Shown: positions 29,601 through 43,616 of the stretch, in pieces
Layout: every line of letters starts with the position of its first letter
How positions within the stretch are numbered: the stretch's first letter is position 1
Origin: an uncultured Prevotellaceae bacterium
GTDB lineage: Bacteria > Bacteroidota > Bacteroidia > Bacteroidales > Bacteroidaceae
Direction: 5' to 3'
DNA length: 64,000 nucleotides
NCBI GenBank assembly: GCA_900318115.1
Contig: ONJJ01000013.1
Span: 1-64,000 of the forward strand
Notes under the pieces: generated by a model
The model's input: only the letters and a program-made list of their open reading frames with translations
What the model was told of the DNA's origin: nothing
The model's database searches: none
Program-made: the position numbers and the translations under genes

Positions 29601-30085
29601 TCAATCCCGCAGCCTCCATGTACTACGAGGCAGAACGCGATGCCGCTCTCTTCCCGGCAATGGACGCTTCCGCAATGCAGCTCTACAGCATTGCTGCCGG
29701 CGTACAGTATGCTATCAACGAGCGTCCGCTCGCCGACGGTTCCGTGCAGCTCGCTGCTCACTTCGGCAAGGCAGGTACCTACACTTTCACCCTCGAGACC
29801 AAGGCCACCGAGAGCGTCATCCTCATCGATGAACTCGAAGGAACCGCTGTAGAACTGAACGGCACCGAGGGCTACACCTTCACTGCCGAGGCAGGAACCG
29901 CAGACAAGCGTTTCTGCCTGCTGTTTGCTGGTACTGCCGATGCTATCAACGAGCTCGCAGCAGATGAGCTCAGCGGTGCAGACGTCTTCACCCTCGATGG
30001 TAAGAAGATTGCAGGCAAGCCTTCCATCACAGGCATTTACCTCGTCAAGAAGAATGGTAAAGTCCGTAAAGTTTCTGTAAAATAA
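23606..30085 (+). CDS. Giant secreted BspA-type LRR surface protein (2159 aa), paralogue
   Basis: Signal peptide MKKYLFILIMSLMAGMAMQA. The layout matches the upstream protein but with one more beta-sandwich/helical-linker unit (modules near 330-490, 660-850 and 1010-1190). An LRR_5 domain follows (about 1370-1650), then the same C-terminal beta domains and a tail VFTLDGKKIAGK...GIYLVKK. The last kilobase is nearly identical at DNA level to the 3' end of the preceding gene, pointing to tandem duplication or gene conversion. Likely an adhesin or surface-glycan-binding protein; substrate unknown. Confidence 0.84.
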   Translation: MKKYLFILIMSLMAGMAMQAHPGQQAAPLGDGDVQSEESESKWSAPVEPVLDEVGSDIRSGELYYIKNVGAGQFLTGANSWSTQISLTSAGYKDANNPPLVIQVVDTTIIMSGTSVSGYAMKVYGTQWVNGNNGERSMTNTLLFRDSEEWGFIDYNNQGRGCVWNITKRNGYYRIRTADGDIAYESLAYQYAGWYDWNGPIEVDEDGYLVSGETTVNFACWVDAETGEIDDESAHVDWLFIPVIQYQSKLKLYEARLALYDLLNEADAYGVETSKVGAIYTNEDSRIEDIERAQVILIDEINRVKFLEYLGDATEENPIEATEFVLVNPDFEEGNIGGWTTNYVSGQQANNIGYQGAVYQNGDVYISRFIEAWKSDGQPWTIGDGYLQQTVYGLPQGKYVLEADAISVYQWADHTSDGFIGKNPAEGVYLFIKAGNNEVRTNLATGNGAPEHFSITYVCQEGDVLTFGLKTVNATANWIAADNFKIFYYGPTTDSQATLDLKVLVAKANEMTGMTLDVKAVLDAAVKTANDAISNDDETIKEAAISSLEAAIKKASLSIEAVKDFISNKYLPYYNAYTSLAQSGLFTDNTYPALISQIEGLRASSSFESEEQLSELYASVKDGWGTYIGSKTTFANATPEHPDTLTGAIINPKFSDLIGIQGQAKGWDVVWDGTGNVNESAYIAENGTTTSGYELWNTGPFRFTQTLKGLPKGCYRLLMDGYYRCGTPVDAQERISTETSVVNVYLFAADATKAIHDWGLEGSETPLGLNNEYELTLNDGRQLYAPDRVVDAEVYLRNGYYIDNALDFYFDGAEEGFSFGVRKDNVIPADWTYIDNFRLLYLGNGVDAYAEAIQSHIAEMKKVKEECILTVEGINRYNAALSAAEIALAGEDVAACIAVIEQINAAALYIQEGDVLGKNVKKAIDSYVDRVQYVNTSDDWMTSYLAASVDSLYSGTYPSNAWLEKKATLVHYDWGAFIMQDAKGQASDLNPYDASAFFTGTNFVNHDGWGSLCDWALEISGSSWRWSTSGAGGFEAWGSQVLSLRQPTFYGLPEGFYRLTFNGFYRGGSTADQAAEMQRNGTEKSQAIVYMNDGEQADSVLLAKYTDGAQGALLDVGDEVPVVLNDANGNIGTYYLPNTLNSASSYFANGCYQRTHEMEINTGQLSVGVVQLGDNPGNWIVVSNFKLEFLGSIADRKNQLTTALSTLQGYLEDGKGYEKTLREEAIALTATANDLLEAETPDGAAMSLATKSINELIGKIKASMEAYQNLMATIESVQQRQALVKDLSDEAKAEVEAAITAATSGYNEGSFTAQEVKAEIAALNQLANRLLTSYLVITVEAEGVLSDSIQNYVTDFTLVENLKVIGPLNTDDILTLQSLNNLADVDLSEARITNLNNAFQNHTMLKKAVLPSNLTTIRSSLFSGCTALEDVTLPGSLTSIGSYLFEELTSLKRVVLGEGITSLSSYMFENCYRLSEVVMPSSLRNINNGAFYNCYSYASIQLPDELESIGNYAFYRDNKERYLYNEHSVYDDNGNYLGYQYDTIPNLTPKQIEIPASVKTIGENAFFNLAKLESVTFNEGLTSLGSRAFYNSAVRTATFPGTLTSVGYRVFNSGTQYTSLALNPPTANNGCPVEYPETLYVPRPAVKAYKQAAGWNNFKIFGADVMPDEIIVSKQLKLDFANTNMPEGYKPDLTIQPSNVSVSSTSTPSTLGALEVLNGSNLNVRSFTLQGYNHAQRNYYFYNWGSSNNRKPQYATLITDGIMTPDNIDITMSLTDGYWNFISVPYHVRVGDITPEQEGTQWTIRYYDGAARAQGDLNNTWVNLTANDILEPGQGYIMHCTYSPSRYNYVTFHFPALNDGNKYLIFSPSDRTITLDENPSDTPNNRGWNLIGNPYPAYIHISSLGSSAPITVWNGYNGYYAYSPLDDDYTLCPGEAFFVQHSENQGSITLSAAARQSYYDITGTTNYVKGVNRHASADRRVFNLMISDGEHTERTRLVINPAASMYYEAERDAALFPAMDASAMQLYSIAAGVQYAINERPLADGSVQLAAHFGKAGTYTFTLETKATESVILIDELEGTAVELNGTEGYTFTAEAGTADKRFCLLFAGTADAINELAADELSGADVFTLDGKKIAGKPSITGIYLVKKNGKVRKVSVK

Positions 30086-30105
30086 ATCTCTAAATCATAT
30101 AAGTC

Positions 30106-33100
30106 ATGATACGAAAATCATTCAGCATTTTGTTCCTCTGGCTCTTTACTATGGTCGGAGTGGCGCAGACGGATGGCTATGACCCCGTCAACCCGCCCAA
30201 CCCAGATGTGCAGGCAACGACCTATTTGTTGGCGACTTCGGTTCAGCCGGCTCAGGCAGGCTCGACCAATGTGTCGGGCAGTAAATACTCGGCCGGATCC
30301 AGCGTGTACGTCTATACCTCCAGGAATAACGGGTATGTCTTCAAGCACTGGACAGACGGCACGAATATCGTTTCCACCGAAAGCAGTTTCTACTACACGA
30401 TGCCTGCCGGCAGCGCCCACCTGACAGCTGTCTATGAGTACAACCCCAACTCGCCAGACAACCCCAGCGGCGACTACACGCGGTCTCACGCGCTGGCTCT
30501 GAAGGCATCGCCCTCGCAAGGCGGATCGTTCAACTACAACAATAATGGAGAATACAAGCAGGGACAGCAGTTATCCCTGTATGCCTACTCCAATACGCAC
30601 TATGTCTTCAAGCATTGGGAGTATCAGGGCAAGGTTGTAAGCACCGATAGAAACTACAACTTCACCATGCCCGACGTCAACGCAGAACTGGTGGCTGTCT
30701 TTGAATACAACCCCACCAGTCCTCAGGATCCCGGCACCAACTCCTGGAATGCCGAGACGGGTGAACTCATCGTGGACGCCTTCGAGAAGGGCAACCTCTC
30801 CAATGCCATCTACAATGTAACTGGTGGAAACACCAACTCCGTGCAGACCCTGATTGTGAATGGCAAAGTCAGCAACTACGACATCGGCAACATGGAGAGC
30901 TATCCCTTCTCCGTGGTAGACTTCAGCCGCTGCGCCGGAGCTACTTCCGTTCCCTCGTGGAGTTTTGAGAACAATTCCACGCTGACTTCCATCTCATTGC
31001 CCAGCAGCATCACGAACATCGAGTACTATGCATTCTCCGGCTGCTCGAGCCTGACCAGCGTCAGCTGCTATGCCACCGTTCCTCCCACCCTGGGAACCAA
31101 TGTCTTCAACGGCATCAAGGAACAGCTCGTGGTCTTCGTGCCTGCCACCAGCATCGACCTCTATCAGGAAGCTGCAGGCTGGAAGGATCTGACCATCCTG
31201 CCGCTCTCCAGCCAGGTCAATGCCCTTGAGGTGAACTTGCCTGCGGGCAGCGACGACGGACGATTCAAGAATATGTTCATCGAACTGGTGAACGCCAACA
31301 GCGGACAGCGTATGCGCTACGTCATCAGCGACCGCACCGCCTACACCTTCCAAAACCTGATGCACAACACCAAGTGGAACGTCTACGTGAAGAACGCCAC
31401 AGGACAGGTGCTCGGTCAGATGGAGAACATCGAGATGCAGACCAGCGACCGCAGCGTGACCTTCCAAAGTCTGATAGAGCCTCAGACCATCAAGGCTGTG
31501 GTGAAGACTCCCGACGGCACCGACGTCAGCGGTCAGATGGCTTTCACCTGGATGACTGCCGACGGCACTTACCTGGCTCAAGGAGCCAGCGTCAGCGGCA
31601 TCCTTCCCATCGATGACGCTGCCGTCATCCTGCGTGCCACCCTGCCGCAGGCTCTGGCCATGCAGTATCAGCTGCTCGCAGACACCACCTTCGTGGTACA
31701 GACCTCTGGCAACACCATCACCCAGACCCTTGCAGCACTGCCCACAGCCAAACTAACGGGTACGGTGCGCGACGTGCTGACGAACGCCGCACTGGGCGGA
31801 GCCACAGTCACCGTTTCGCAGACCCTGAACGGCAAATATAGCAAGGCCTTCACCACAACGGCCAATGCACAAGGCGTCTATAGCCTTGATGCCTTCTACG
31901 CACCCACCAGCATCACAGCAGTGGCCACGGACTACATCAGTCAGACCGTTCTCTACGATTCCCTCACGATAGAGAACGGCGTGGCCACCCTGCAGGATAT
32001 CACTCTGAAGAGCATCAATGGTGCCACCATCACCCTGAACTTCACCTACACGCCCGCGGCACTCAGCGGTTCTGCTGCCGAGACCCAGACCTACTACAGC
32101 GACTACCAGAACGTGGCCTACGCTATCCGCGACATCACCACGGGGCAGGACATCAAGCAGTTCAACGTGCAGTATCCGCAGATTGTCCTGCTGGAGGACG
32201 TAGCGCTCGGCGACAGCCTGCAGCTCACCGCCACCAGCAAGACGGGAAGCTTCATGCCCGTGGTAGCCAAAGGTAAGGTCAACGATATGAACCGCGCAGA
32301 AGTCACTTTCGACATCAAGCAGCTCGGTCAGATCAGCGCCACCTTCGTCTCCACGGAGAACAGCGCTGTCAACGGCATCCTCTACGACAGCAAGGGCAAG
32401 TTCGTGAAGAACGTTGCATACTCCAACGCCGCCCTCAGCTTCAAGGAATTGACCGATGGTGACTATACCCTCATCACGATGGGCAACAGCAAGCTCTTCA
32501 ACACCATCTACGACCTGAGCAAGTTTGAGCAAGCTGGTTTGAAGGACGGCACGGACTATGTCGCTACTCCGGTAAAGGTGCAGAGCGGCGTTATCTCTGC
32601 CGTGAAGACCAGCTACGTTCCCTTCTTCGACGAGAGCAAGCTGTACTACACGGGTGACAACACCAGCTTCACCGTCAACAAGACACAGGTCACTGCCGGT
32701 AACTACCTGACCATCAACAGCCGCATCGACTTCAAATCGCTCTATACCAATGAAGTCTCCAATGTGCGCCTCGTCGTGGATCTGCCCAGCACCTGTTCTT
32801 TGGTTGACAACTCCGTCATGGTGGGTAGTGGCCTTAGCACCTACATCTCCGCAGCCGGTCGTGTTACCATTCCTGTGGACAACCTCAACGACCGCATCCG
32901 CTTCTGCGTGATTCCTACTGCGGGTGGTGACTACTCTCCCAGTGCTTACGTCCAGTTCACCTACAACGACCAGGATGTAACCCAACCTATAGGTAACGCC
33001 AACTTCACAGTGAAGGACTTGAGTATTACTGCACCAAGTGTAGTGGCCAAGACAAGTGTGCCTCTCAATGGTACAGCTGTCGGTAAGTCCAAAGTGGAAA

Positions 33101-36100
33101 TTTTCGACAATGGTGTTCTTATAGGAGAGACCACGGCTTTGGCTAACGGCACTTGGGCCACGAGTTGTGAACTGGATGACCCATACAATCTTTCAACACA
33201 TAAGGTTTATGCCAAAGTTACCACTTTGACTGGATTAGAGATGCAATCTGAGGCCAAGAATATAGTTTATGACATGAATGCTATTCAGGTTTCCAAAGTG
33301 ATAATGTATCACTACAATCCTGAGATGAACAAGACGTTCCAGTCAGCTTTTGACTTCATGAATCCATCAACTAAAGCCAATCAGTGGACGGTTTATTATC
33401 CAAGGAAGTTATTCACATATACCCTTGAATTCACAAACAATTCGCCAGATAAGGTATCAAATGTGAAACTCTATGTTCATACTGCAGATGGTCGAAAAGT
33501 ACCTCTCACGCCCAAATACGATGAGAAGAAAGATCTTTGGGTGGCTGATATTGATATGGGGAACCGTAGCGACGGATATTATCCTGTAAATGTCAGTGTA
33601 GGTTACAGCATCATGGGTGGAGAAGTTGAAATTGATTACAGGCAAATCCAGGATGCTTACGAAACCTCATTGGATTTAAGGCCGGATATTGAGTCAATCG
33701 ATGGAGAATACGAATCATTCACCCAGCAGCTTCTGAATGCATATGACAATAGTATTATTGACGGGGCGAAGATTGAAGGCATCTTGAGTTCTTATCGGAC
33801 GTCATTAGGTCTGAGTGAAGACGACTCTGAGACCATATATCTCCAGCTTAAGGAGATGACCCCCGAGCAACTTGCAGCATTCAGAGAATCCCTCTTACAA
33901 GAAGTTAATGCATTCGAGTCGGCTCCCATTCTTGATTATTATGAAAATGGCTCAGACTTGTTGAAGGACTATGACTACTCTTTCGTGATAGACGAAATAC
34001 CATTTAAGGTAATAAGGAAATCATGTAAGGATCTGGTTCCTGAGAATCTTGTTGCCGACGGGTTTAGGGAAGTATCTACTTTAAGCGGCGAAATCATCTA
34101 TGTAAAAGGGGACAACAACTATCTTGAAATAGTCGACTTCAAAGCAGATTATTACAGCAAAATTGAACTGGTTGACGGCTACTCCAATGTCAAAAAGATA
34201 TCTGTCTCTGGAATGTGGGAAACAGCAATCCGAAAGATGGATGAATGCAATAATATGCTCGTAAAGGCACAAACAGCAGCCTTGGATGCCATAACTGAAA
34301 TTGCAGATTTCTTTGGTCAGAAGATTGCCAACTTAACAAATACAGCGTCAAACCTGCGAGCTATGGCCAAAGTAGACAGAGAAATGGGGTTGTTAGAAGG
34401 ATCTGGAGAACTGCTTTCCAGTGCTAAGGATCTTGAAAAGCAGGCTATGGAACTAGAAAAACAGGCTGCAAAATATCAAAAACTCACAGCAGATGCCAAG
34501 GTTGCGGGCAAAGCAATCGTTGGCAAGATTGTCCAATTATTAGGCAGTGTTGCATCGTTGACTATTGATGTTAAGAACTGGTGGAACCTACATAAGAGAA
34601 TTGAAGCCAAGATTCCATGCAAAGGAAATGAAAGTTATGCCCTAGAGCTGAGCAGTGATGTGACCTATTATGGCAGTTTGATTTGCACTGGTGATGTTGT
34701 TACTCTTGCGGGAGCAGTCTTTTCAGTTTATTCGGCAGCAATGGGTTTGGCAGGAACTCCCTTAACTGGCGGTTTGTCGACAGTTATAGGTGGGACAGCC
34801 GGTCTTATTGGTGCAGAAGTTTCAATTGCTGCTGGCTTTGCTTTCGATTGGTTATCAAAACGCACCTATAATCGATTAAATAATGAGGTAAGCAAATTAA
34901 AATGTGAAGATGATGATGACGATGATGATGATGATGACGACGATGATGATAATGATGATGACTCAGGCTCTCCTGATGATGATGTCCAAATCGACCCCTC
35001 CGGCTATGTCTACGAGGGTGTACAGAGCAACCGCTTACAAGGTGTAACTGCAACCTGTTACTACAAGGAAACGGGCGAGGATATGTACGGCGACCCGTAT
35101 GAGAAGGAAGTGCTGTGGGATGCTGAGGAATACGCTCAGGAGAACCCGCTGTTCACCGACGAGAACGGTTTCTATCGTTGGGATGTTCCTCAGGGACTCT
35201 GGCGCGTGAAGTTCGAGAAGGAAGGCTATCAGACCACTTATTCCGAGTGGCTGCCCGTGCCTCCTCCACAGCTCGACGTCAACATCGCCATGACCCAGGA
35301 CCGTCAGCCCGAAGTCAAGGAAGCCAAGGCATACGAGGATGGTGTGGAAATCGAGTTCGACAAGTATATGCTGCCCGAAAACCTCACTACCGACAACATC
35401 ATCGTCAAGAAGAATGGCGAGAAGATAGAGGATGGTACCATCGAGCTGCTCAATGCCGAGAACCCCGACGGCAGCAGCGATGGCGACAACGGTGCCAAGC
35501 AGGCTCCAAGCCGCAGGGCTAGCGGTTCCGCAGAAAACGTCCTCGCCTCGAAGGTGAAGTTCGTGGTGCCCGATGGCACACAGCTGCTCAGCACCGATGA
35601 GGTGACGCTCATTGTCACCACGGGCGTGAAGAGCTATGTAGGACTGCCCATGCAGGAGACCTACACCCAGACCTTCGACGTCGAGAAAGCTGTTCGCAAG
35701 ATCTCTGCAGACTCCCTGCTGACCGTGCTCTACGAAGGAACACGTACCCTGCAGGTGAGCGCTCTGCCCGGCGATGCCGCAGCAGGCAAGACCTTGCGTG
35801 TGCGTCCGCTCTCCACCCTCATTGCCGACATCTCCGGCGAGGGTCTGACCCTGCAGGAAGACGGCTCGTCCACCATCACCCTGGACGAGGAAGGCCAGGC
35901 CACGCTGACCGTCAGCGGTGAGCTGCCCGGCTCCACAGCCCTGCAGTTCAGCATCGACGACACCAAAGCCGAGGGTCAGACCCTGGTGAAGGTGCAGCAG
36001 GCCGCCTCACTCGTCACTCCGAATCCTCGCGCTTCCCGTGCTTCCGGCAGCGCCGTCTATCGCGGCACGCTTATCAGCCTCAGCTGCGAGAATGAGAATG

Positions 36101-37383
36101 CCAAGATCTGGTACACCTTAGATGGTACGTGTCCGTGCGATCCCGCCACGGCTCTGGTCTACAGCCAGCCCATCGCCATCAACGACGATGCCGTGACCAT
36201 CAAGGCCATGGCCCAGGCCGAAGGCTTCGAAGAGAGCGAAGTGGTGACCTTCGAGTATACCGCCAAGAAGAACAACCAGGAACTCGCACTCAGCGAAGGC
36301 TGGACTTGGATTTCGCATAACGTAGCTAACAACCTCGCCGTAAGCACCTTCCCGGAGAAGACCCTTGAACTGAAGAGCCAGACTCGCGGTGTCATCCGCG
36401 ACGCAGTGCTCGGCCTCTTCGGTAACCTCCAGGAACTGACTCCCACGGAAGCTTATAAAGTCAAGATGTCTGCCAGTGCAACACTGCCCGTCAGCGGCGA
36501 TGCCTTCAATGCCTCGAAGGGCATCATCAGCCTCAGCAAGGGTTGGAACTGGATTGGCTACCCCATGGATCAGATTATGACGCCCACGGAGGCCCTGACG
36601 AATCTCTCCGCCGCCGAAGGTGATATGCTGGTAGGCCTGAGCGGTTCGGCAGACTTCATCGATGGTGCCTGGATTGGCGACCTCGAAACCATGACGCCGG
36701 GTCTGGGCTATATGCTCAAGACCAGTGCTCCGGCCGAGTTGCTCTACAACACCGGCATCGTCTCCAAGGCTGCCTCGCTGACCCGCGGCCGTCTGAACAT
36801 CAACAATTCGCCGTGGAGCGTGGACGAGCACGCCTACTCCAACGTAATGCCCATGCGCGCTCAGCTCTTCCGCGAGTCCGGACAAACGGACGATGACGAG
36901 TACACCGTGGCTGCCTTTGCCGGCACGGAATGCCGTGGCATCGGTAAGTACGTGCAGGGTGTCATCTTCATGAACGTCCATGGCGAAGGAGCTGAAGACA
37001 TCACCTTCCAGGCCGTACACAACGAGAAGGAGTACATCGTGGATATCCAGGAGACCCTACCCTTCAAGTCCGATGCTGTAGGCAGCTACCGCCAGCCCTT
37101 CGCCCTGCACCTGGGTGACGAGACTGTAGGCATCGAAGAGCGCTACAGCCAACTCGGCGTATGGCCCACCATGGCAACCACGGAAATCACCGTAAGCCTG
37201 AGTGGCAAGCCCATCGACCGCCTGACGCTGACCAGCACCGATGGTAAGATGGTACGCGCAAAGGCTTCCGGACTGACGCAGGAAATCATCAACGTGACGA
37301 ACCTGCCGGCCGGTGTCTACATCGTAGCAGCCCAGAGCGGCAACGAGTACTTCTACAAGAAGATAATGAAAGTGAATAATTAA
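30106..37383 (+). CDS. Giant mosaic surface protein with InlB-like, LRR, helical-hydrophobic and sorting domains (2425 aa)
   Basis: Signal peptide ending near MVGVAQ. Two divergent InlB-B-type repeats (about 40-205) are followed by a short LRR_5 segment (about 255-350) and several Ig/carboxypeptidase-regulatory-like modules (for example LTGTVRDVLTNAALGGATVTV, about 550-610). Residues about 966-1620 come from AT-richer DNA and include coiled-coil-like helices, a hydrophobic run (about 1525-1585) and an Asp run (1602 on). The C-terminal part has a carboxypeptidase-regulatory-like module, a chitobiase-like beta module (about 1975-2060), an AAFAGTECRG domain, and a type-IX-secretion-like sorting domain (GVYIVAAQSGNEYFYKKIMKV). 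Probable cell-surface adhesin or effector; no enzyme motif recognised. Confidence 0.83.
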   Translation: MIRKSFSILFLWLFTMVGVAQTDGYDPVNPPNPDVQATTYLLATSVQPAQAGSTNVSGSKYSAGSSVYVYTSRNNGYVFKHWTDGTNIVSTESSFYYTMPAGSAHLTAVYEYNPNSPDNPSGDYTRSHALALKASPSQGGSFNYNNNGEYKQGQQLSLYAYSNTHYVFKHWEYQGKVVSTDRNYNFTMPDVNAELVAVFEYNPTSPQDPGTNSWNAETGELIVDAFEKGNLSNAIYNVTGGNTNSVQTLIVNGKVSNYDIGNMESYPFSVVDFSRCAGATSVPSWSFENNSTLTSISLPSSITNIEYYAFSGCSSLTSVSCYATVPPTLGTNVFNGIKEQLVVFVPATSIDLYQEAAGWKDLTILPLSSQVNALEVNLPAGSDDGRFKNMFIELVNANSGQRMRYVISDRTAYTFQNLMHNTKWNVYVKNATGQVLGQMENIEMQTSDRSVTFQSLIEPQTIKAVVKTPDGTDVSGQMAFTWMTADGTYLAQGASVSGILPIDDAAVILRATLPQALAMQYQLLADTTFVVQTSGNTITQTLAALPTAKLTGTVRDVLTNAALGGATVTVSQTLNGKYSKAFTTTANAQGVYSLDAFYAPTSITAVATDYISQTVLYDSLTIENGVATLQDITLKSINGATITLNFTYTPAALSGSAAETQTYYSDYQNVAYAIRDITTGQDIKQFNVQYPQIVLLEDVALGDSLQLTATSKTGSFMPVVAKGKVNDMNRAEVTFDIKQLGQISATFVSTENSAVNGILYDSKGKFVKNVAYSNAALSFKELTDGDYTLITMGNSKLFNTIYDLSKFEQAGLKDGTDYVATPVKVQSGVISAVKTSYVPFFDESKLYYTGDNTSFTVNKTQVTAGNYLTINSRIDFKSLYTNEVSNVRLVVDLPSTCSLVDNSVMVGSGLSTYISAAGRVTIPVDNLNDRIRFCVIPTAGGDYSPSAYVQFTYNDQDVTQPIGNANFTVKDLSITAPSVVAKTSVPLNGTAVGKSKVEIFDNGVLIGETTALANGTWATSCELDDPYNLSTHKVYAKVTTLTGLEMQSEAKNIVYDMNAIQVSKVIMYHYNPEMNKTFQSAFDFMNPSTKANQWTVYYPRKLFTYTLEFTNNSPDKVSNVKLYVHTADGRKVPLTPKYDEKKDLWVADIDMGNRSDGYYPVNVSVGYSIMGGEVEIDYRQIQDAYETSLDLRPDIESIDGEYESFTQQLLNAYDNSIIDGAKIEGILSSYRTSLGLSEDDSETIYLQLKEMTPEQLAAFRESLLQEVNAFESAPILDYYENGSDLLKDYDYSFVIDEIPFKVIRKSCKDLVPENLVADGFREVSTLSGEIIYVKGDNNYLEIVDFKADYYSKIELVDGYSNVKKISVSGMWETAIRKMDECNNMLVKAQTAALDAITEIADFFGQKIANLTNTASNLRAMAKVDREMGLLEGSGELLSSAKDLEKQAMELEKQAAKYQKLTADAKVAGKAIVGKIVQLLGSVASLTIDVKNWWNLHKRIEAKIPCKGNESYALELSSDVTYYGSLICTGDVVTLAGAVFSVYSAAMGLAGTPLTGGLSTVIGGTAGLIGAEVSIAAGFAFDWLSKRTYNRLNNEVSKLKCEDDDDDDDDDDDDDDNDDDSGSPDDDVQIDPSGYVYEGVQSNRLQGVTATCYYKETGEDMYGDPYEKEVLWDAEEYAQENPLFTDENGFYRWDVPQGLWRVKFEKEGYQTTYSEWLPVPPPQLDVNIAMTQDRQPEVKEAKAYEDGVEIEFDKYMLPENLTTDNIIVKKNGEKIEDGTIELLNAENPDGSSDGDNGAKQAPSRRASGSAENVLASKVKFVVPDGTQLLSTDEVTLIVTTGVKSYVGLPMQETYTQTFDVEKAVRKISADSLLTVLYEGTRTLQVSALPGDAAAGKTLRVRPLSTLIADISGEGLTLQEDGSSTITLDEEGQATLTVSGELPGSTALQFSIDDTKAEGQTLVKVQQAASLVTPNPRASRASGSAVYRGTLISLSCENENAKIWYTLDGTCPCDPATALVYSQPIAINDDAVTIKAMAQAEGFEESEVVTFEYTAKKNNQELALSEGWTWISHNVANNLAVSTFPEKTLELKSQTRGVIRDAVLGLFGNLQELTPTEAYKVKMSASATLPVSGDAFNASKGIISLSKGWNWIGYPMDQIMTPTEALTNLSAAEGDMLVGLSGSADFIDGAWIGDLETMTPGLGYMLKTSAPAELLYNTGIVSKAASLTRGRLNINNSPWSVDEHAYSNVMPMRAQLFRESGQTDDDEYTVAAFAGTECRGIGKYVQGVIFMNVHGEGAEDITFQAVHNEKEYIVDIQETLPFKSDAVGSYRQPFALHLGDETVGIEERYSQLGVWPTMATTEITVSLSGKPIDRLTLTSTDGKMVRAKASGLTQEIINVTNLPAGVYIVAAQSGNEYFYKKIMKVNN
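34906..34960 (+). repeat. GAT/GAC trinucleotide run encoding poly-Asp
   Basis: About 18 near-consecutive GAT/GAC codons begin after Glu1601 of the 2425-aa protein. The run marks the 3' limit of the AT-rich insert. Such tracts can change length by slippage in steps of one codon, and poly-Asp may bind calcium or act as an exposed linker. Confidence 0.85.
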
Positions 37384-37409
37384 TGTTAACGTAAAGATTT
37401 GAATCCCCT

Positions 37410-38093
37410 ATGAAAAAGAAGATTCTCTTTACCCTGATCAGTGTTCTCCTGCCGCTCAGCCTCTGGGCGCAGGAGAGCCACTGGCAATTCGATTTTCATG
37501 AGTTCGAATATGACATGACTGTCTTTGTGAACCTCAAATTGGACGATGAGTTATTAACGGACTGGTCGAACTATGAGGTGGCGGCATTCTGTGGAAGCGA
37601 ATGTCGCGGCATACTGACCGCAGAAGACATTCTAGATACAGGTTCGGCCAAGGTTGGACAACTACGCGTTCGCAGTAATTCTTCCTCTGGCGAGACCATC
37701 ACCTTCAAAGTCTATGATAAGACTGAACAGAAGGAAATCAACGTTCAGGACACCAAAATCACCTTCTCCAGCAATGCAACCCAAGGCTCAGCTAGCTCTC
37801 CATTCAAGTTGGATATTACCCAAAAGTATACTCCAGGAGATACCAATGGCGATGGAGAAATAGACCTTACTGATGCTTCATTGATATTCAGATATTATAG
37901 TGAATTCTTTGAGGATGTAGACGCCATGGAAGAAGCTGGACTTACATTTGTTCTAGAAGCAGCAGATGTGAATGGCGATGGTTTTGTAGATCTGACAGAC
38001 GCCTCACTTGTATTCAGATATTATAGTGAATTCTTCGAAGATGTAGAAGCCATGAATGAAGCTGGACTTACAGTCTTAATACCTTCCATGTGA
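37410..38093 (+). CDS. Exported dockerin-domain protein (227 aa)
   Basis: Signal peptide MKKKILFTLISVLLPLSLWAQ. Residues about 22-140 form a beta domain containing AAFCGSECRG, similar to the AAFAGTECRG domain of the preceding protein. Residues about 143-225 form a type I-like dockerin with two calcium loops, DTNGDGEIDLTDASL and DVNGDGFVDLTDASL, each followed by FRYYSEFFEDV(D/E)AM. The two halves are nearly identical. There is no sorting tail, so surface retention probably relies on another protein. The next gene, 29 nt downstream, begins with a cohesin-like domain, the natural partner of a dockerin. Confidence 0.87.
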   Translation: MKKKILFTLISVLLPLSLWAQESHWQFDFHEFEYDMTVFVNLKLDDELLTDWSNYEVAAFCGSECRGILTAEDILDTGSAKVGQLRVRSNSSSGETITFKVYDKTEQKEINVQDTKITFSSNATQGSASSPFKLDITQKYTPGDTNGDGEIDLTDASLIFRYYSEFFEDVDAMEEAGLTFVLEAADVNGDGFVDLTDASLVFRYYSEFFEDVEAMNEAGLTVLIPSM

Positions 38094-38122
38094 AAATGAG
38101 TAAAACATAAATAACTATTCCT

Positions 38123-41100
38123 ATGAAAAAAATTAGTTCTTTATTATTCTTGTTGCTTGCGTCCATTGTGACCCAGGCTGCAGACCAGTTCTCTATGGCG
38201 AAAATAGACATTAAACCAGGAGAGACAAAAGTTGTTACGGTCAGCCTCACTAATGAACAAGAGACTCAAAGTGTTGTTGTTGATGTCACTCTTCCTGCAG
38301 GCCTGTCTTTCGTCAACGCCAATGGAGATGTCGTGACTCAGGGTAGTAATAACGGCGTCGTATTTGCAGATAGGACATCAGGCTTCATGAGCAAGACTGC
38401 CAACGTCAACAAGAATACGGGTCTCATGCGAACCAGTTTTACTTTTGGTTCAATGCCTGCTGGAGATGGAGAACTCTTCACTTTCAAAGTCAAGGCTAGT
38501 GAGAACGCAACAATTGGCGCTGTAAAAATAAACTATACAGGTTTAAAAGTCACTTATGGCAGCACTACCAATACGCATTCAGACATGACATCCGATGTCA
38601 ACATCTACGACATCTACAACGTCGCCGTAGCTACTGCCGACGCTTCCATGGGTTCCGTCTCCGGAGGAAATGCTGAAGCCATGTCTGGCACGCCAATGAC
38701 TGTCACCGCCACCCCCGTCACCGGCTATGACTTCGTGGCATGGAAGGATGGCGACACACAGGTATCCACCGATGCTGCCTACACCTTCACCCCGACCAAG
38801 AGCATCACGCTGACAGCCACCTTTAAGGCACATGTCTATACTGCAACCTTCAAGAGCGAAGGCAAGTCAGAGAACAAGAACATCGCTTTCGGCGAGGCCG
38901 TCACGGCTCCAACGCCGACTACCAAGACCGGCTACACCTTCAGCGGATGGGACAACCTACCACAGACCATGCCCGCACAGGACATCACCGTCACCGCCCA
39001 GTACACCATAAATAAATATAAGGTGACGTTCGACGTCGATGGCGTGAAGACCGAATCCGAACTGGAGTACAACGCCGCCATCACCAAACCTCAGGATCCC
39101 ACCAAGGAAGGCTACACCTTTGCCGGATGGAATCCTGCAGTACCCGCCAACGTACCCGCCAGCGCCGTCACCTACACCGCCACCTGGACCATCAACCAGT
39201 ACACGGTGAAGTTCGTGGTCGACAACACTGACGTCTACAACCAGAAGCAGGACTACGCATCCACTATCACCAAGCCCGCGAATCCCACCAAGAAAGGCCA
39301 TACCTTCAAGGGATGGACACCCGAGGTAGCTGCCAAGGTGCCTGCCGCTGACGTCACCTACACCGCCGTCTTCGAGGTCAACAAGTACAAGCTGACCTTC
39401 GACGTCGATGGCGTGAAGACCGAATCCGAGGTCGAGTACGATGCCGCTATCACCAAGCCCGCAGACCCCACCAAGGAAGGCTACACCTTCGCCGGATGGG
39501 ATGCTGAAGTGCTCGCCAAGATGCCCGACCAGGCACTCACCTACACCGCCACCTGGACCATCAACCAGTACACGGTGAAGTTCGTGGTCGACAACGCTGA
39601 CGTCTACAACCAGAAGCAGGACTACGCATCCACCATCACAAAGCCCGCAGACCCCACCAAGAAAGGACATACCTTCAAGGGATGGAACCCCGAAGTAGCA
39701 GCAACAGTGCCTGCAGAGGACGTCACCTACACGGCTGTCTTCGAGATTAACAAGTACAAACTGACCTTCGTCGTCGATGGAGAGAAGACCGAGAGCGAAG
39801 TGGAATACAACACCGCCATCACCAAGCCCGCCGACCCACAGAAGGAAGGCTACACCTTCAAGGGATGGGATGCAGAGATTCCTGCCAAGATGCCCGAACA
39901 GGCACTCACCTTCACCGCTCAGTTCCAGATTAACAAGTACAAGGTGAAGTTCGTCGACGAAGACCATACTACCGTACTACTGGCAGAAGCCGAATACGAA
40001 TACAATGCAGACCTCACAACCGTGGCTCCTGATATGACGAATAAGACGAATGTCGATGGTGCTCCCTTCTCCACCTGGGTGGCCAGCTTCGGAGACTGGA
40101 CAGGCAAGGTACCCGCCAGTGACGTCGTCTATACGGCTCTCTATGGCGGTGAGTTCGACTTGGTATTTAAAGTCGACGGCCAGGAAGTGAAGAAGGCTGT
40201 TGTGGAATACAACAACGCCTTCACCGCACCCGAAGCTCCCAGCAAGACGGGCTTCAACTTCACAGGCTGGAAGGATCAGTTCGACAAGGCGCCGGCTGAC
40301 TACAGCAGCAAGATGCCCGCCAAGAACGTCATCTTCGAAGCTCAGTGGGAAATCATCCACTACACCTTCACCTACACCCTCAACGGCGGTGCCATCGAGG
40401 GTGAGAACCCGAACCTGACCGATGTCACCATCGAGAGCAGCTTCACCCTGAAGAACCCCGTACGCAAAGGATATAACTTCGTAGGATGGACTGCCACGGG
40501 CATTGCCACACCTTCCACACAGGTAGCCATTGCCAACACACAGGCCAACAACACCTACGTCGCCAACTGGGAGGCTATCAACTACAACCTCACCTACAAC
40601 CTGAACGGAGGCGCTCTCCCCGAGAACATCACCAACCCCGCCACCTACACCATCGAGGACGCCGTTGCGCTAAACAACCCCGTCAAGGAAGGCTACACCT
40701 TCACCGGATGGACGGGCACGGAACTCGCCGAGGCCTCCACCTCCGTAACGATTCCTGCCGGTTCGGTGGACAACCGCAGCTACGAGGCCACCTGGTCTAT
40801 CAACAGCTACAAGGTCAAGTTCGTCGACGGCAATGATGTCCTGAGCGAAGAGACTATGGTCTTCGGCTCCAGCATCACGGCTCCCACCACTCCCAACAAG
40901 GACGGACTCGTCTTCATCGGATGGAATCCTGAGCTGCCCCAGACCGTACAGGCCGGCGACTTCACCTATTCCACCGTCTACGTCCCTGCCACCTTCAAGG
41001 CATACTTCAAGATCGACAATGCCGACTTCACGACCGTCGAAGTGAAGTATGGCGAGCAGATTCCTGCTCAGACAGCTCCCGAGAGGGAAGGATACACCTT

Positions 41101-42262
41101 CAGCGGATGGAGCGAGATTCCCGCCACGATGCCGGCCAGCGACGTCACCATCACGGGTACATACGTTCCTAATAAGTACACCGTCAAGTTCGTCCTCGGC
41201 AACGAAGTGCTCTACGAGCAGTTGCAGGACTTCGGTACCGCCATCACCATTCCCAATGTGACTGAACCCGAAGGATGGCTCTTCTCCGGATGGGATCCTG
41301 AGGTCGATGCCACCGTACCCGCACACGACGTCACCTACACCGCCACCCTCACAGAAAACAGCTTCCGGATTACCTATTACCTCGAGAACGAGCTCTGGAT
41401 CATCCAAGACCTGAAGTTCGGCGAGGAAATCGGACTCCCCGAGGTGCCCGAGAAGGAGGGTTACACCTTTGCAGGATGGAAGAACGCCGAAGACCAGAGC
41501 AATGTGCCCGAGACGATGCCCAGCCACGACATCACCTACTACGGTGACTACAACATCAACCAATACACCGTGAAGTTCGTCTTCGCCGGCAAGGTGATTT
41601 CCGAGCAGAAGTTGGACTATCAGGCTGCCATCACAGCTCCTGAGAACCCTGAGAATGAAGGCTACACCTTCCTCGCCTGGAATGAATTCGATGCCACCGT
41701 TCCGGCTCACGATGTTACCGTGGAGGCACAATACGACGTCAACACCTACAAGGTCACCTACAAGGTCGAAGGTCAGGAAGACCAGGTCTTTGAAGTCAAG
41801 TTCAAGGAAAAAGTGCCGACCATCGACAATCCGGAACTGGAAGGTCACACGTTCACTGGATGGAATCAGGAGATTCCTGCCACGATGCCTGCAGCCGATG
41901 TCACCATCACCGCTGAATTTGATGTCAACACCTACGCCATCCGCTACTACGTCGACGGCGAAGTCTGGGCCGAGGATTCCGTACAGTATGGCGCTACCGT
42001 AGAGCTGCGCGAATACCAGCTGGAAGACACCGACCGCTACTCCTACGTCTGGGATGGCGAGACCGTGGAGACCATGCCTGCCCACGACCTCGAGTACATC
42101 CTCTCGATTGTCGACGGTATCACAGCAGTCTTCGCAGAAGGACCTGCCGACGTCTTCACCCTCAACGGCACCAAGGTTCGCTCGAAAGCTACTGCCAAGG
42201 ACGTCCAGAACCTGCCTGCAGGTATGTACATTATCCGCGGTAAGAAAGTTTTGATTAAATAA
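38123..42262 (+). CDS. Surface protein with cohesin-like domain and Listeria-Bacteroides repeats (1379 aa)
   Basis: Signal peptide MKKISSLLFLLLASIVTQA. Residues about 20-165 resemble a cohesin: MAKIDIKPGETKVVTVSL at the start, LFTFKVKASENATIGAVKI later and a closing SDVNIYD strand. A divergent InlB-B repeat follows, then about 16 Listeria-Bacteroides repeats of 60-70 residues, each marked by a GYTFxGW-like core. The tail DVFTLNGTKVR...GMYIIRGKKVLIK resembles those of the first two operon proteins. The likely role is a long stalk displaying a binding domain at the cell surface. The cohesin assignment is by motif pattern, without a structure search. Confidence 0.8.
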   Translation: MKKISSLLFLLLASIVTQAADQFSMAKIDIKPGETKVVTVSLTNEQETQSVVVDVTLPAGLSFVNANGDVVTQGSNNGVVFADRTSGFMSKTANVNKNTGLMRTSFTFGSMPAGDGELFTFKVKASENATIGAVKINYTGLKVTYGSTTNTHSDMTSDVNIYDIYNVAVATADASMGSVSGGNAEAMSGTPMTVTATPVTGYDFVAWKDGDTQVSTDAAYTFTPTKSITLTATFKAHVYTATFKSEGKSENKNIAFGEAVTAPTPTTKTGYTFSGWDNLPQTMPAQDITVTAQYTINKYKVTFDVDGVKTESELEYNAAITKPQDPTKEGYTFAGWNPAVPANVPASAVTYTATWTINQYTVKFVVDNTDVYNQKQDYASTITKPANPTKKGHTFKGWTPEVAAKVPAADVTYTAVFEVNKYKLTFDVDGVKTESEVEYDAAITKPADPTKEGYTFAGWDAEVLAKMPDQALTYTATWTINQYTVKFVVDNADVYNQKQDYASTITKPADPTKKGHTFKGWNPEVAATVPAEDVTYTAVFEINKYKLTFVVDGEKTESEVEYNTAITKPADPQKEGYTFKGWDAEIPAKMPEQALTFTAQFQINKYKVKFVDEDHTTVLLAEAEYEYNADLTTVAPDMTNKTNVDGAPFSTWVASFGDWTGKVPASDVVYTALYGGEFDLVFKVDGQEVKKAVVEYNNAFTAPEAPSKTGFNFTGWKDQFDKAPADYSSKMPAKNVIFEAQWEIIHYTFTYTLNGGAIEGENPNLTDVTIESSFTLKNPVRKGYNFVGWTATGIATPSTQVAIANTQANNTYVANWEAINYNLTYNLNGGALPENITNPATYTIEDAVALNNPVKEGYTFTGWTGTELAEASTSVTIPAGSVDNRSYEATWSINSYKVKFVDGNDVLSEETMVFGSSITAPTTPNKDGLVFIGWNPELPQTVQAGDFTYSTVYVPATFKAYFKIDNADFTTVEVKYGEQIPAQTAPEREGYTFSGWSEIPATMPASDVTITGTYVPNKYTVKFVLGNEVLYEQLQDFGTAITIPNVTEPEGWLFSGWDPEVDATVPAHDVTYTATLTENSFRITYYLENELWIIQDLKFGEEIGLPEVPEKEGYTFAGWKNAEDQSNVPETMPSHDITYYGDYNINQYTVKFVFAGKVISEQKLDYQAAITAPENPENEGYTFLAWNEFDATVPAHDVTVEAQYDVNTYKVTYKVEGQEDQVFEVKFKEKVPTIDNPELEGHTFTGWNQEIPATMPAADVTITAEFDVNTYAIRYYVDGEVWAEDSVQYGATVELREYQLEDTDRYSYVWDGETVETMPAHDLEYILSIVDGITAVFAEGPADVFTLNGTKVRSKATAKDVQNLPAGMYIIRGKKVLIK
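39022..39918 (+). repeat. 369-bp tandem superunit within the repeat gene
   Basis: A two-repeat block (123 codons) starting at 39181 recurs at 39550 with very few base changes, and a half unit precedes it at about 39022. This suggests recent expansion by unequal recombination. Confidence 0.8.
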
Positions 42263-42281
42263 CTTTCAAGGTCTTTTACCA

Positions 42282-42368
42282 AAGCGCATTTACATCCAGT
42301 CTCGGCTTAAGCGACTCTGAATCTCGCAATTTTTCACCCCACTAAAAGGACGAGGCTGGTGTAAATGC
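42282..42368 (+). ncRNA. Structured RNA motif, copy B (after the operon)
   Basis: An outer stem GCATTTAC/GTAAATGC (42286-42293 with 42361-42368), extended by CCAG/CTGG and CTCG/CGAG, encloses the hairpin GCGA-CTCTGAATC-TCGC (42311-42327). The hairpin and spacing match the leader motif at 17956-18024. It lies 20 nt past the last operon stop and directly before a terminator, so it could be a 3' UTR element or a processed small RNA. Confidence 0.55.
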
Positions 42369-42375
42369 CTCAGAT

Positions 42376-42406
42376 TAGGGGATGTAGCCATGTGCTGCAT
42401 CCCCTA
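42376..42406 (+). terminator. Strong hairpin terminator after the surface-protein operon
   Basis: TAGGGGATGTAGC pairs with GCTGCATCCCCTA (13 bp, 5-nt loop), followed by a modest T-rich stretch. It separates the operon from the nucleoside hydrolase gene. Confidence 0.7.
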
Positions 42407-42508
42407 TTATCTTTCTATGTAGGAGACATAACGGCTGGTAGAGAGTTAGAATATCGGAGGTAAATTTTGGGCAAAAAAACTTCTTGCAGAGAAAAAAAGG
42501 GGCAAAGG

Positions 42509-42540
42509 TTTGCACAAATGACAGGAATGCCGTACCTTTG
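42509..42540 (+). promoter_or_regulatory. Promoter of the nucleoside hydrolase gene
   Basis: TTTG at 42509-42512 and TACCTTTG at 42533-42540 are 20 nt apart. The start codon is 36 nt downstream of the -7 element. Confidence 0.8.
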
Positions 42541-42575
42541 CCGCTGAAAATCAACGTGGGATAAATTCATCTGCA

Positions 42576-43616
42576 ATGAAAAAAGTATTTACTATCCTTC
42601 TGGCAGCCCTGACGATGACGGCTTTCGTCGGGTGCAGCAAAGATAACGATGAAAAAAAGCCTGAGAATAATGAATACACCGACACGCCGCGTATCATTCT
42701 CGACACGGACATCGGTTCTTCGACCGACGACCTCTTCTCCCTGAAGATGCTCTACCGCTACCAGGAAGAAGGGCGTTGCCAACTGCTGGGTGTCGTGGTA
42801 GATCGCGAGGGAGAGGACTGCGCAGCATGTGCCGACGTGATGAACACCTTCTTCGGCCACGGTGACATTCCCATCGGATTGGAACGCAACGGCATCAAGA
42901 AACCACGCGTGTACATCGACTACAGACATCTTCGCGACCTGAAAGATGAAGACGGCAAGCCCCTTTTCGCGACCACCATCAGCGACTACTCGGCACTGCC
43001 TGAAGGATGGAAGCTCTACCGCCAACTGCTGGCAGGCCAGCCCGACCATTCCGTCAGCATCTGTTCCATCGGTTTTGTCACCACCCTCGCCCATCTCCTG
43101 GAGTCGCAGGCCGATGCCTTCTCACCCTTGTCGGGCGTTGAACTCATCCGGCAGAAGGTGAAGTGTCTATATATCATGGGAGGCGTCTTCACATCTTCTG
43201 AAGAGCCAGAGTACAACTTTGCCCAAGGCCCAGATTTTGCCAAGACGTTCTTCAACCTGTGGCCAAAGGATGTTGACATCGTGTTCTCCCCCATGGAGGT
43301 AGGCAATGGTATTAATTACCTCAAAGCACTTGTCCTGTCCGACCTCTCCGGAACCGACCGCCACCCGCTGAAGTACATCTATGAGACCCTCTACGATGAT
43401 GCCGGCGGCCAAAAGATGTGGGATCCACTGACCGTCATTCAGGCCGTGGAGGGCGACGCCCTCTTTTCCCTCTCTGAGCGAGGCACCGTCACCATCACCG
43501 ACGATGCCGCCACCATCTTCACCCCTTCCGCCACCGGCAACTGCCGCCACCAGCTGGCAGGCTCCGCGGAGTGGAACAGCCAGATGCTGCAGAAGATCAG
43601 GGCAATAATGCCATAG
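42576..43616 (+). CDS. Nucleoside hydrolase-like lipoprotein
   Basis: A 346-residue protein of the inosine-uridine nucleoside hydrolase superfamily. ILDTDIGSSTDDLFSL is the DxDxxxDD calcium/ribose-binding motif. The N-terminal signal sequence ends in FVGCSK, a lipobox, so the protein is anchored in the envelope rather than cytosolic. It may split nucleosides, or a related N-glycosidic substrate, in the periplasm. It has its own promoter; the exported phosphatase gene follows after 125 bp. Confidence 0.88.
   Translation: MKKVFTILLAALTMTAFVGCSKDNDEKKPENNEYTDTPRIILDTDIGSSTDDLFSLKMLYRYQEEGRCQLLGVVVDREGEDCAACADVMNTFFGHGDIPIGLERNGIKKPRVYIDYRHLRDLKDEDGKPLFATTISDYSALPEGWKLYRQLLAGQPDHSVSICSIGFVTTLAHLLESQADAFSPLSGVELIRQKVKCLYIMGGVFTSSEEPEYNFAQGPDFAKTFFNLWPKDVDIVFSPMEVGNGINYLKALVLSDLSGTDRHPLKYIYETLYDDAGGQKMWDPLTVIQAVEGDALFSLSERGTVTITDDAATIFTPSATGNCRHQLAGSAEWNSQMLQKIRAIMP

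Follow-up and report, generated by a model that had tools for sequence, protein, structure and literature searches.

A dockerin gene followed by a gene for a cohesin-like protein with a T9SS-like tail: a candidate cell-surface docking pair in a relative of rumen Bacteroidales

Dockerins are found in rumen Prevotella, yet their role in the gene clusters of Bacteroidetes 'is not defined yet' according to the accessible text of one account (PMC7480376), which raises the question of what such a domain might dock on. A stretch of 64,000 nucleotides from an uncultured Prevotellaceae bacterium (assembly GCA_900318115.1, contig ONJJ01000013.1, positions 1 to 64,000; hereafter the window) poses this question in compact form. 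A gene for a 227-aa protein that ends in a dockerin (gene 1) is followed on the same strand, after 29 nt, by a gene for a 1379-aa protein that begins with a cohesin-like domain (gene 2). From comparisons of sequence and gene order we propose, with a probability of roughly three in four, that the two products form a cognate cell-surface docking pair, the 227-aa protein docking through its dockerin on the 1379-aa protein, which would itself be anchored by way of the type IX secretion system (T9SS).

The dockerin was recognized by the curated family PF00404 at residues 142–204 of the 227-aa protein (44.3 bits, cut-off 22.9). Both DxNxDGxxxxxD calcium loops are complete and retain their ligand residues, and the pattern that we used for sorting-like tails finds none after the dockerin. 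An earlier note on this DNA, made from its letters alone, had described a two-loop dockerin, the lack of a sorting tail and a next gene 29 nt on (38093 to 38123, same strand), and all of this is confirmed. The two repeats of the window dockerin are alike at 18 of 22 residues, a likeness that is 19/22 in the close relative G111, 15/22 in the close relative G043 and 10/22 at a further related locus (L097), while the repeats of the host genome (G000) and those of G043 have only 9–11 of 22 residues in common. Repeats that are alike within an allele, in alleles that stand apart from each other, are expected if both repeats recognize one partner, and the near identity of the two window repeats suggests that the dockerin may bind in either of two orientations.

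To place the N-terminal domain of gene 2, cohesin-like relatives were gathered from the genus and a profile was iterated over the loci fetched. A held-out family profile (a hidden Markov model, HMM) of 62 domains, which left out the window, G111 and G043, scored the window domain at 65.7 bits, against 10.0 for the best of 1000 shuffles (995 scored). Run against the PDB, the 62-sequence family profile matched 29 sequences at E <= 10 (best 5n5p, E 9.9e-7), and 26 of them were classed as cohesin modules: five are named cohesin, and the remaining 21, which we take to be cohesin modules, carry the names scaffoldin or anchoring protein (15), NagJ (4) and Endoglucanase (2). The profile of the window's own subfamily (A3, six members) gave 14 PDB matches, seven of them cohesin modules, with four NagJ entries at the top (E 0.0028 to 0.0036); the window domain as a single query gave three, of which the first two are autonomous cohesin (E 0.043 and 0.047). 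With hhalign, A3 matched five cohesin domains of relatives at 99.2% (E 5.6e-20, 106 columns), compared with 0.5% for a control with the N-terminal domain of the 227-aa protein (the AAFxGxECRG, or AAF, domain). Three of those five domains come from one 689-aa protein that passes the curated Cohesin family PF00963 with 75.2 bits (cut-off 24.1), and two from proteins at 20.6 and 21.4 bits. On these profile comparisons (held-out HMM, PDB profiles and hhalign) the domain is a member of the cohesin family by sequence, in a branch that Pfam mostly misses, and the cohesin-like call of the earlier note stands.

The rest of the 1379-aa protein has the makings of a surface anchor. Its N-terminus is signal-peptide-like, its stalk comprises 15 Flg_new and 11 Flg_new_2 (InlB-type) stretches by Pfam, and its C-terminal end, LPAGMYIIRGKKVLIK, resembles a T9SS C-terminal signal; the T9SS translocon SprA, the component of the system that we searched for, is encoded in the host genome (2654 bits). 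The long repeat stalk and sorting-like tail noted earlier were thus found again, even though the tail reaches only 11 bits for TIGR04183 (cut-off 23), a point against our reading. The tail, a putative T9SS signal, may work like a T9SS tail. A weak Pfam Cohesin match elsewhere in the host genome (C34:3964-4122) lies inside the SprA open reading frame (ORF) and was rejected as spurious.

Proteins that end in a dockerin and proteins that bear a cohesin also differ at their C-termini, in support of the pairing. In the loci that we fetched, none of the 38 C-terminal-dockerin proteins with a complete end carries the T9SS-like tail pattern, as opposed to 19 of 23 cohesin-bearing proteins without a dockerin; among those whose dockerin is internal, the figure is 15 of 17. 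These loci, which also serve for the covariation and neighbour counts below, were fetched because they hold these domains, and L094, L095, L098 and L100 (duplicates) as well as L011 and L012 were dropped before counting. The tail expression was composed after such tails had been seen; among its four misses, L079, L083 and L092 are tailed by eye, and L080 goes out of frame at its end, close to where the contig stops. A hydrophobic N-terminal stretch is present in 37 of the 38 C-terminal-dockerin proteins, and a crude lipobox match in three. Two tail-less dockerin-ended proteins were found in the host genome, one in the window and one on contig C47, and a cohesin-plus-tail gene lies directly after each. 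Only in this sense does the 'self-contained' of the earlier note apply to the pair, while the genome has four further Dockerin-family matches, one of which is below cut-off. One candidate, C17:68140, was rejected as a dockerin protein, being a sub-cut-off match to 22 of 57 model positions with more than 100 residues after the motif.

Gene order across the genus provides a second line of evidence. Among 131 genomes, a Dockerin_1 match was present in 118 and a cohesin-like match in 105. For a closer count we used 14 genomes with both domains, taken in handle order (G017, which also has both, was left out), and these hold 136 dockerin and 76 cohesin-like matches. For 28 of the 136 dockerins a cohesin-like domain lies in the dockerin's own ORF; for 28 such a domain lies in a different ORF no more than 1.5 kb downstream, and for one in a different ORF upstream, measured from domain to domain. 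Against the resulting 29 on either side, 2000 runs of random placement averaged 0.45 and never exceeded 4, and 63 of the 76 cohesin-like domains lie less than 3 kb from a dockerin. In the fetched loci, the cohesin-like gene is the next gene for 17 of 39 C-terminal-dockerin genes, and the previous gene for six, four of which have one on both sides. Elsewhere in the order, the cohesin-like family occurs in 23 of 294 other genomes (E <= 1e-6). Five multi-cohesin loci were fetched from these, representing three other families, and in every one the first multi-cohesin gene is preceded by a gene that carries a dockerin.

Several features of these counts temper the pattern. Surface genes tend to lie in clusters, which makes random placement a weak null, and distances taken from domain to domain work against upstream cases and so inflate the ratio of 28 to 1. 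When ORF lengths are used to set a bound, the count among the 136 dockerins is 28 downstream and no more than 4 upstream; eligible for it are the 45 that have a cohesin-like match on their own contig and strand, which leaves out the other 91. As many as 107 of the 136 lack a cohesin-like domain in any other ORF up to 1.5 kb away, and the order is reversed at loci L081 and L082, where the cohesin gene precedes the dockerin gene. Several adjacency cases are orthologous. Grouped at 40% cohesin identity, 28 tandem pairs of the fetched loci fall into 21 clusters, and even 21 is too high for independent cases, because loci L111–L114 make up four clusters but look like a single dyad. As upstream cases exist, the dockerin-then-cohesin order is a strong tendency rather than a rule. 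In the minimal dyads of L111–L114, the first protein (224–229 aa) has a signal-like start, a cohesin-like domain and a dockerin, and the second (211–253 aa) a signal-like start, a cohesin-like domain and a tail-like end.

A similar mixture appears among the eight named loci retrieved with the dockerin protein itself. At the G111 and G043 loci (L094 and L095) the order is giant, dockerin gene, cohesin-like gene. At L098 and L100 a cohesin-like giant immediately precedes the dockerin gene and is itself preceded by an ORF with another dockerin; the small dockerin protein of L098 has the first calcium loop only. L099 has a cohesin-like giant before an AAF-family gene, with no dockerin found there before the contig ends, and L096 is interrupted by a contig end. 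The dockerin gene of L097 and L101 (2/8) has no cohesin-like neighbour, which again weighs against a fixed pairing. Four of the eight loci come from ruminant gut samples and the other four carry RUG isolate numbers, which we take to mark rumen genomes; the host bacterium is a relative of rumen Bacteroidales.

The comparison with G043 offers evidence of a different kind. Window and relative are collinear over 20.8 kb (18636–39432), with 91–97% DNA identity per segment and two breaks. A 722-bp block without BLASTN alignment (37866–38587) takes in the larger part of the dockerin, the 29 nt between the genes and the cohesin, and its edges lie 33 bp from the dockerin start (37833) and 21 bp from the cohesin end (38608); if a block of this length were placed at random in the span, its start would fall within 35 bp of a chosen point about 0.35% of the time. 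At the protein level, identity between the host and G043 is 53% for the dockerin (with 27 gap columns) and 51% for the cohesin, compared with 75% for the AAF domain; the repeats that follow the cohesin stand at 96% and 98%. As the plug closes gene 1 and the socket opens gene 2, within some 0.8 kb, the parts that would set specificity could be exchanged together.

Other observations do not favour such an exchange. A second block diverged from G043 lies at 33252–34989, within an upstream gene for a 2425-aa giant (residues ~1050–1620), and the AAF domain dips to 67% DNA identity at 37501–37700, so that divergence is not unique to the dockerin/cohesin pair. The comparison with G111 shows no contrast (AAF 62%, dockerin 78%, cohesin 62%, next repeats 76%). 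Moreover, dockerin and cohesin identities are uncorrelated across the 28 tandem pairs (Spearman 0.08, with 726 of 5000 permutations as high), as they are with one pair per cluster (Spearman 0.11, 652 of 5000). The cassette idea may therefore be said to have one clean case, that of G043, and was not borne out by the 28-pair test.

The arrangement that we favour would work as follows. The 1379-aa protein would be exported by type IX secretion and stay fixed to the cell's exterior through its C-terminal tail, with the InlB-repeat stalk presenting its one N-terminal cohesin. The tail-less 227-aa protein would be retained through its C-terminal dockerin, in a calcium-dependent manner, on the cohesin of its neighbour, and its AAF domain would thereby be displayed at the surface, perhaps for ligand binding or adhesion. 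The pairing, put forward in the earlier note as an inference, has gained support from gene order in the genus, the five multi-cohesin loci, the complementary protein ends and the one diverged block, all of them properties of sequence. If correct, the window pair suggests outer-membrane anchoring of a docking system, beside anchoring by sortase and by S-layer homology (SLH) domains, and a recurrent pair of this type may help to explain how dockerin proteins are retained at the surface of rumen-type Bacteroidales.

That the N-terminal domain might instead be a generic Ig-like or bMG10-type module that binds no dockerin is suggested by the curated profiles. PF00963 does not match the window domain at E <= 0.1, the excised domain passes the bMG10 cut-off (29.4 bits vs 26.2), and its single sequence gets no better than E 0.043 in the PDB. 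Six cohesin-plus-tail proteins of the genus, scanned at full length, all stay under the PF00963 cut-off of 24.1: two come close (20.6 and 21.4 bits) and four have no match among those listed. Of three multi-cohesin proteins scanned from other families, one passes the Cohesin cut-off and two (1716 and 2466 aa) show no Cohesin match at E <= 0.01; the multi-cohesin-like protein of L118, without a PF00963 match, reaches 25.3 bits for bMG10. Across the 62-member family, however, Cohesin matches 24 domains (E <= 0.1) and bMG10 two, and none of the 29 PDB matches is named a macroglobulin, on which grounds we rejected a bMG10 identity for the window domain. The 99.2% profile match to cohesins points the same way, and the 1239-aa protein of L119 has the parts of gene 2 with curated matches over cut-off throughout (Cohesin 58.8 bits, InlB repeats, Por_Secre_tail 33.8 bits), which counts against the generic module. 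We therefore regard this alternative as highly improbable; the PF00963 miss is a case of a curated profile that does not reach the domain, not of a demonstrated loss of a defining residue.

Granting a cohesin, the dockerin might still serve other cohesins, in the genome or on other cells, and the neighbouring cohesin other dockerins, with adjacency reflecting no more than the clustering of surface genes. Dockerins do outnumber cohesin-like matches (136 to 76 in the 14 genomes, and 30 to 1 in G016), the identities of neighbours are uncorrelated, the null ignores such clustering and the fairer ratio of direction is 28 to 4. Clustering alone nevertheless leaves that direction unexplained, along with the complementary ends, the diverged block with its edges close to both domains and the cohesin-plus-tail gene that follows both tail-less dockerin proteins found in the host genome; on balance we consider this account unlikely. 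Quite improbable, in our judgement, is that the dockerin-like end has become a calcium-stabilized cap that has lost binding, and that an ordinary recombination block accounts for the co-divergence from G043. A cap would suit the many dockerins in the genus that stand without a cohesin-like neighbour, the dockerin of L081, which has the first loop only, and the modest likeness of the L097 repeats. The window loops, by comparison, keep their ligand residues, and both the likeness of the repeats within the window, G111 and G043 and the distance between the host and G043 alleles are as expected of repeats that recognize one partner.

An extension of the docking pair, in which the clasp doubles as an export ticket, seems doubtful to us at present. 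Tail-less dockerin proteins with a Sec-type signal would first fold in the periplasm and there attach to the cohesin, then cross the wide SprA channel together with their T9SS-tailed partner; the type IX channel is described as transporting folded proteins in the accessible text of one source (PMC9251779). Were this true, tail-less proteins of Bacteroidales, among them enzymes, would reach type IX secretion and the cell surface by way of dockerin–cohesin pairs, with plug and socket swapped as one linked cassette. Nine dockerin-ended, cohesin-free proteins scanned in other genomes of the genus include two peptidases (M6 and S8), one rhamnogalacturonan lyase, three leucine-rich repeat proteins and three without another Pfam match at the limit used. 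Similar dockerin ends (of the IADVTALVN type) were seen at L102–L105, L116 (G016) and L115 (G003), with two peptidases and a rhamnogalacturonan lyase among them.

The proposed pair resembles known systems in part. In Ruminococcus flavefaciens, whose CttA carries two cellulose-binding modules, ScaE is described as the surface anchor of both ScaB and CttA, and cttA precedes scaE (PMC4081043). Like that arrangement, the window has a gene for a docking protein followed by one for a single-cohesin anchor; unlike it, anchoring would depend on a T9SS-like tail and InlB stalk rather than on sortase and a Gram-positive wall. CttA has an X-dockerin. The Pfam scan found no enzyme domain and no carbohydrate-binding module (CBM) in the window pair, a further difference from CttA, and with one cohesin-like domain and no enzyme domain a cellulosome reading was rejected. 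Closer in its manner of anchoring is Candidatus Stygibacter (Cloacimonadota), for which metagenome-assembled genomes point to signal-peptide enzymes with C-terminal dockerins and to a cohesin scaffoldin whose T9SS-type C-terminal domain was inferred to attach it to the surface (PMC8542988). Since it has been inferred there, T9SS anchoring of cohesins is not new in itself. Stygibacter shares dockerin-ended proteins and a T9SS-anchored cohesin protein with our case, and it differs in belonging to another phylum and in having, by the accessible text, one 3755-aa scaffoldin with tandem cohesins and CBMs as well as degradative enzymes; no tandem dockerin-then-cohesin gene order is described in that text. 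The cohesin module of Clostridium perfringens NagJ, a non-cellulosomal cohesin, is the best PDB relative of the window's subfamily profile (2jh2, E 0.0028), and it differs in being part of an O-GlcNAcase without a T9SS-tailed stalk.

Surveys of gut Bacteroidetes suggest why such pairs matter. By standard profiles, 10 of 11 dockerin-bearing Bacteroidetes bins of a camel-rumen study lacked a cohesin, although its accessible text reports cohesins in certain Bacteroidetes, with two cohesins and no dockerin in Bin129 and one cohesin and five dockerins in Bin136 (PMC6071333). Dockerins are also reported from cockroach-gut Bacteroidota (PMC10266427), and the available part of another study describes cellulosomal components as absent, consistent with other Bacteroidetes genomes (PMC5831590). 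A 2025 review of cellulosomes treats anchoring by sortase and SLH, and its main text, as accessible, has no words starting with Bacteroidetes or Bacteroidota (PMC12484212). In the accessible open-access literature we found no report, for Bacteroidales, of a tandem dockerin-then-cohesin order or of T9SS-tailed cohesins. Cohesins with T9SS-like tails that Pfam mostly misses, often found beside dockerin-ended genes, would be concrete candidate partners for the dockerins of rumen Bacteroidetes.

Table 1. Positions of features in the window, and of multi-cohesin-like proteins and minimal dyads in the fetched loci (given by locus).
Feature	Position	Strand	Basis
Upstream 2425-aa T9SS-type giant	30106..37383	+	Por_Secre_tail 25.7 bits, cut-off 27
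Gene 1, 227-aa dockerin-ended protein without sorting tail	37410..38093	+	ORF list; Pfam; tail pattern
Signal-peptide-like N-terminus, residues 1-21	37410..37472	+	sequence reading; crude hydropathy and lipobox test
AAFxGxECRG domain, residues 22-138	37473..37823	+	alignment of 5 proteins
Type I dockerin, two repeats	37833..38021	+	PF00404, 46.3 bits
Calcium loop 1 DTNGDGEIDLTD, residues 144-155	37839..37874	+	sequence motif
Calcium loop 2 DVNGDGFVDLTD, residues 186-197	37965..38000	+	sequence motif
Block without BLASTN alignment vs G043	37866..38587	+	722 bp, ~45-62% DNA identity in 100-bp bins
29-nt intergenic gap, without terminator-like site	38094..38122	+	terminator scan
Gene 2, 1379-aa cohesin-like anchor protein	38123..42262	+	ORF list
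Cohesin-family domain, residues ~21-165	38183..38617	+	held-out HMM; PDB profile matches; hhalign
InlB-type repeat stalk, approximate limits	38618..42100	+	PF09479 386 bits; PF18998 143.3 bits
T9SS-like C-terminal tail, approximate	42125..42259	+	tail regex
Multi-cohesin-like proteins, 5 to 10 domains each	L118 4706-9856; L119 5477-16741; L120 3698-7897		own profile
Multi-cohesin-like proteins, 5 to 10 domains each	L121 1-4504; L122 4765-12003		own profile
Minimal dyads	L111 4181-5558; L112 3676-5178; L113 4346-5708; L114 4277-5640

The host genome measures 3.33 Mb on 74 contigs. Three giants (1710, 2159 and 2425 aa) lie upstream of the pair on the same strand, the last of which stops 26 nt short of gene 1 and may belong to the same operon as the pair; the gene maps show its homologues before the dockerin gene in G111 and G043. 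In a scan of 30000–43000, no terminator-like site was detected on the + strand from 36304 to 42375, the first one after gene 2 being a 13-pair stem at 42376–42406. The region of the 2425-aa giant that diverges from G043 contains a glycine-rich hydrophobic stretch and a poly-aspartate run. For the AAF domain of gene 1 we found no PDB relative (best E 0.53) and no Pfam family above cut-off, with weak Bac_rhamnosid matches in two of five members (best E 0.0039). AAFxGxECRG-like stretches also occur near the C-terminus of the 2425-aa giant, at about 36808–37116 of the window, and elsewhere in the host genome.

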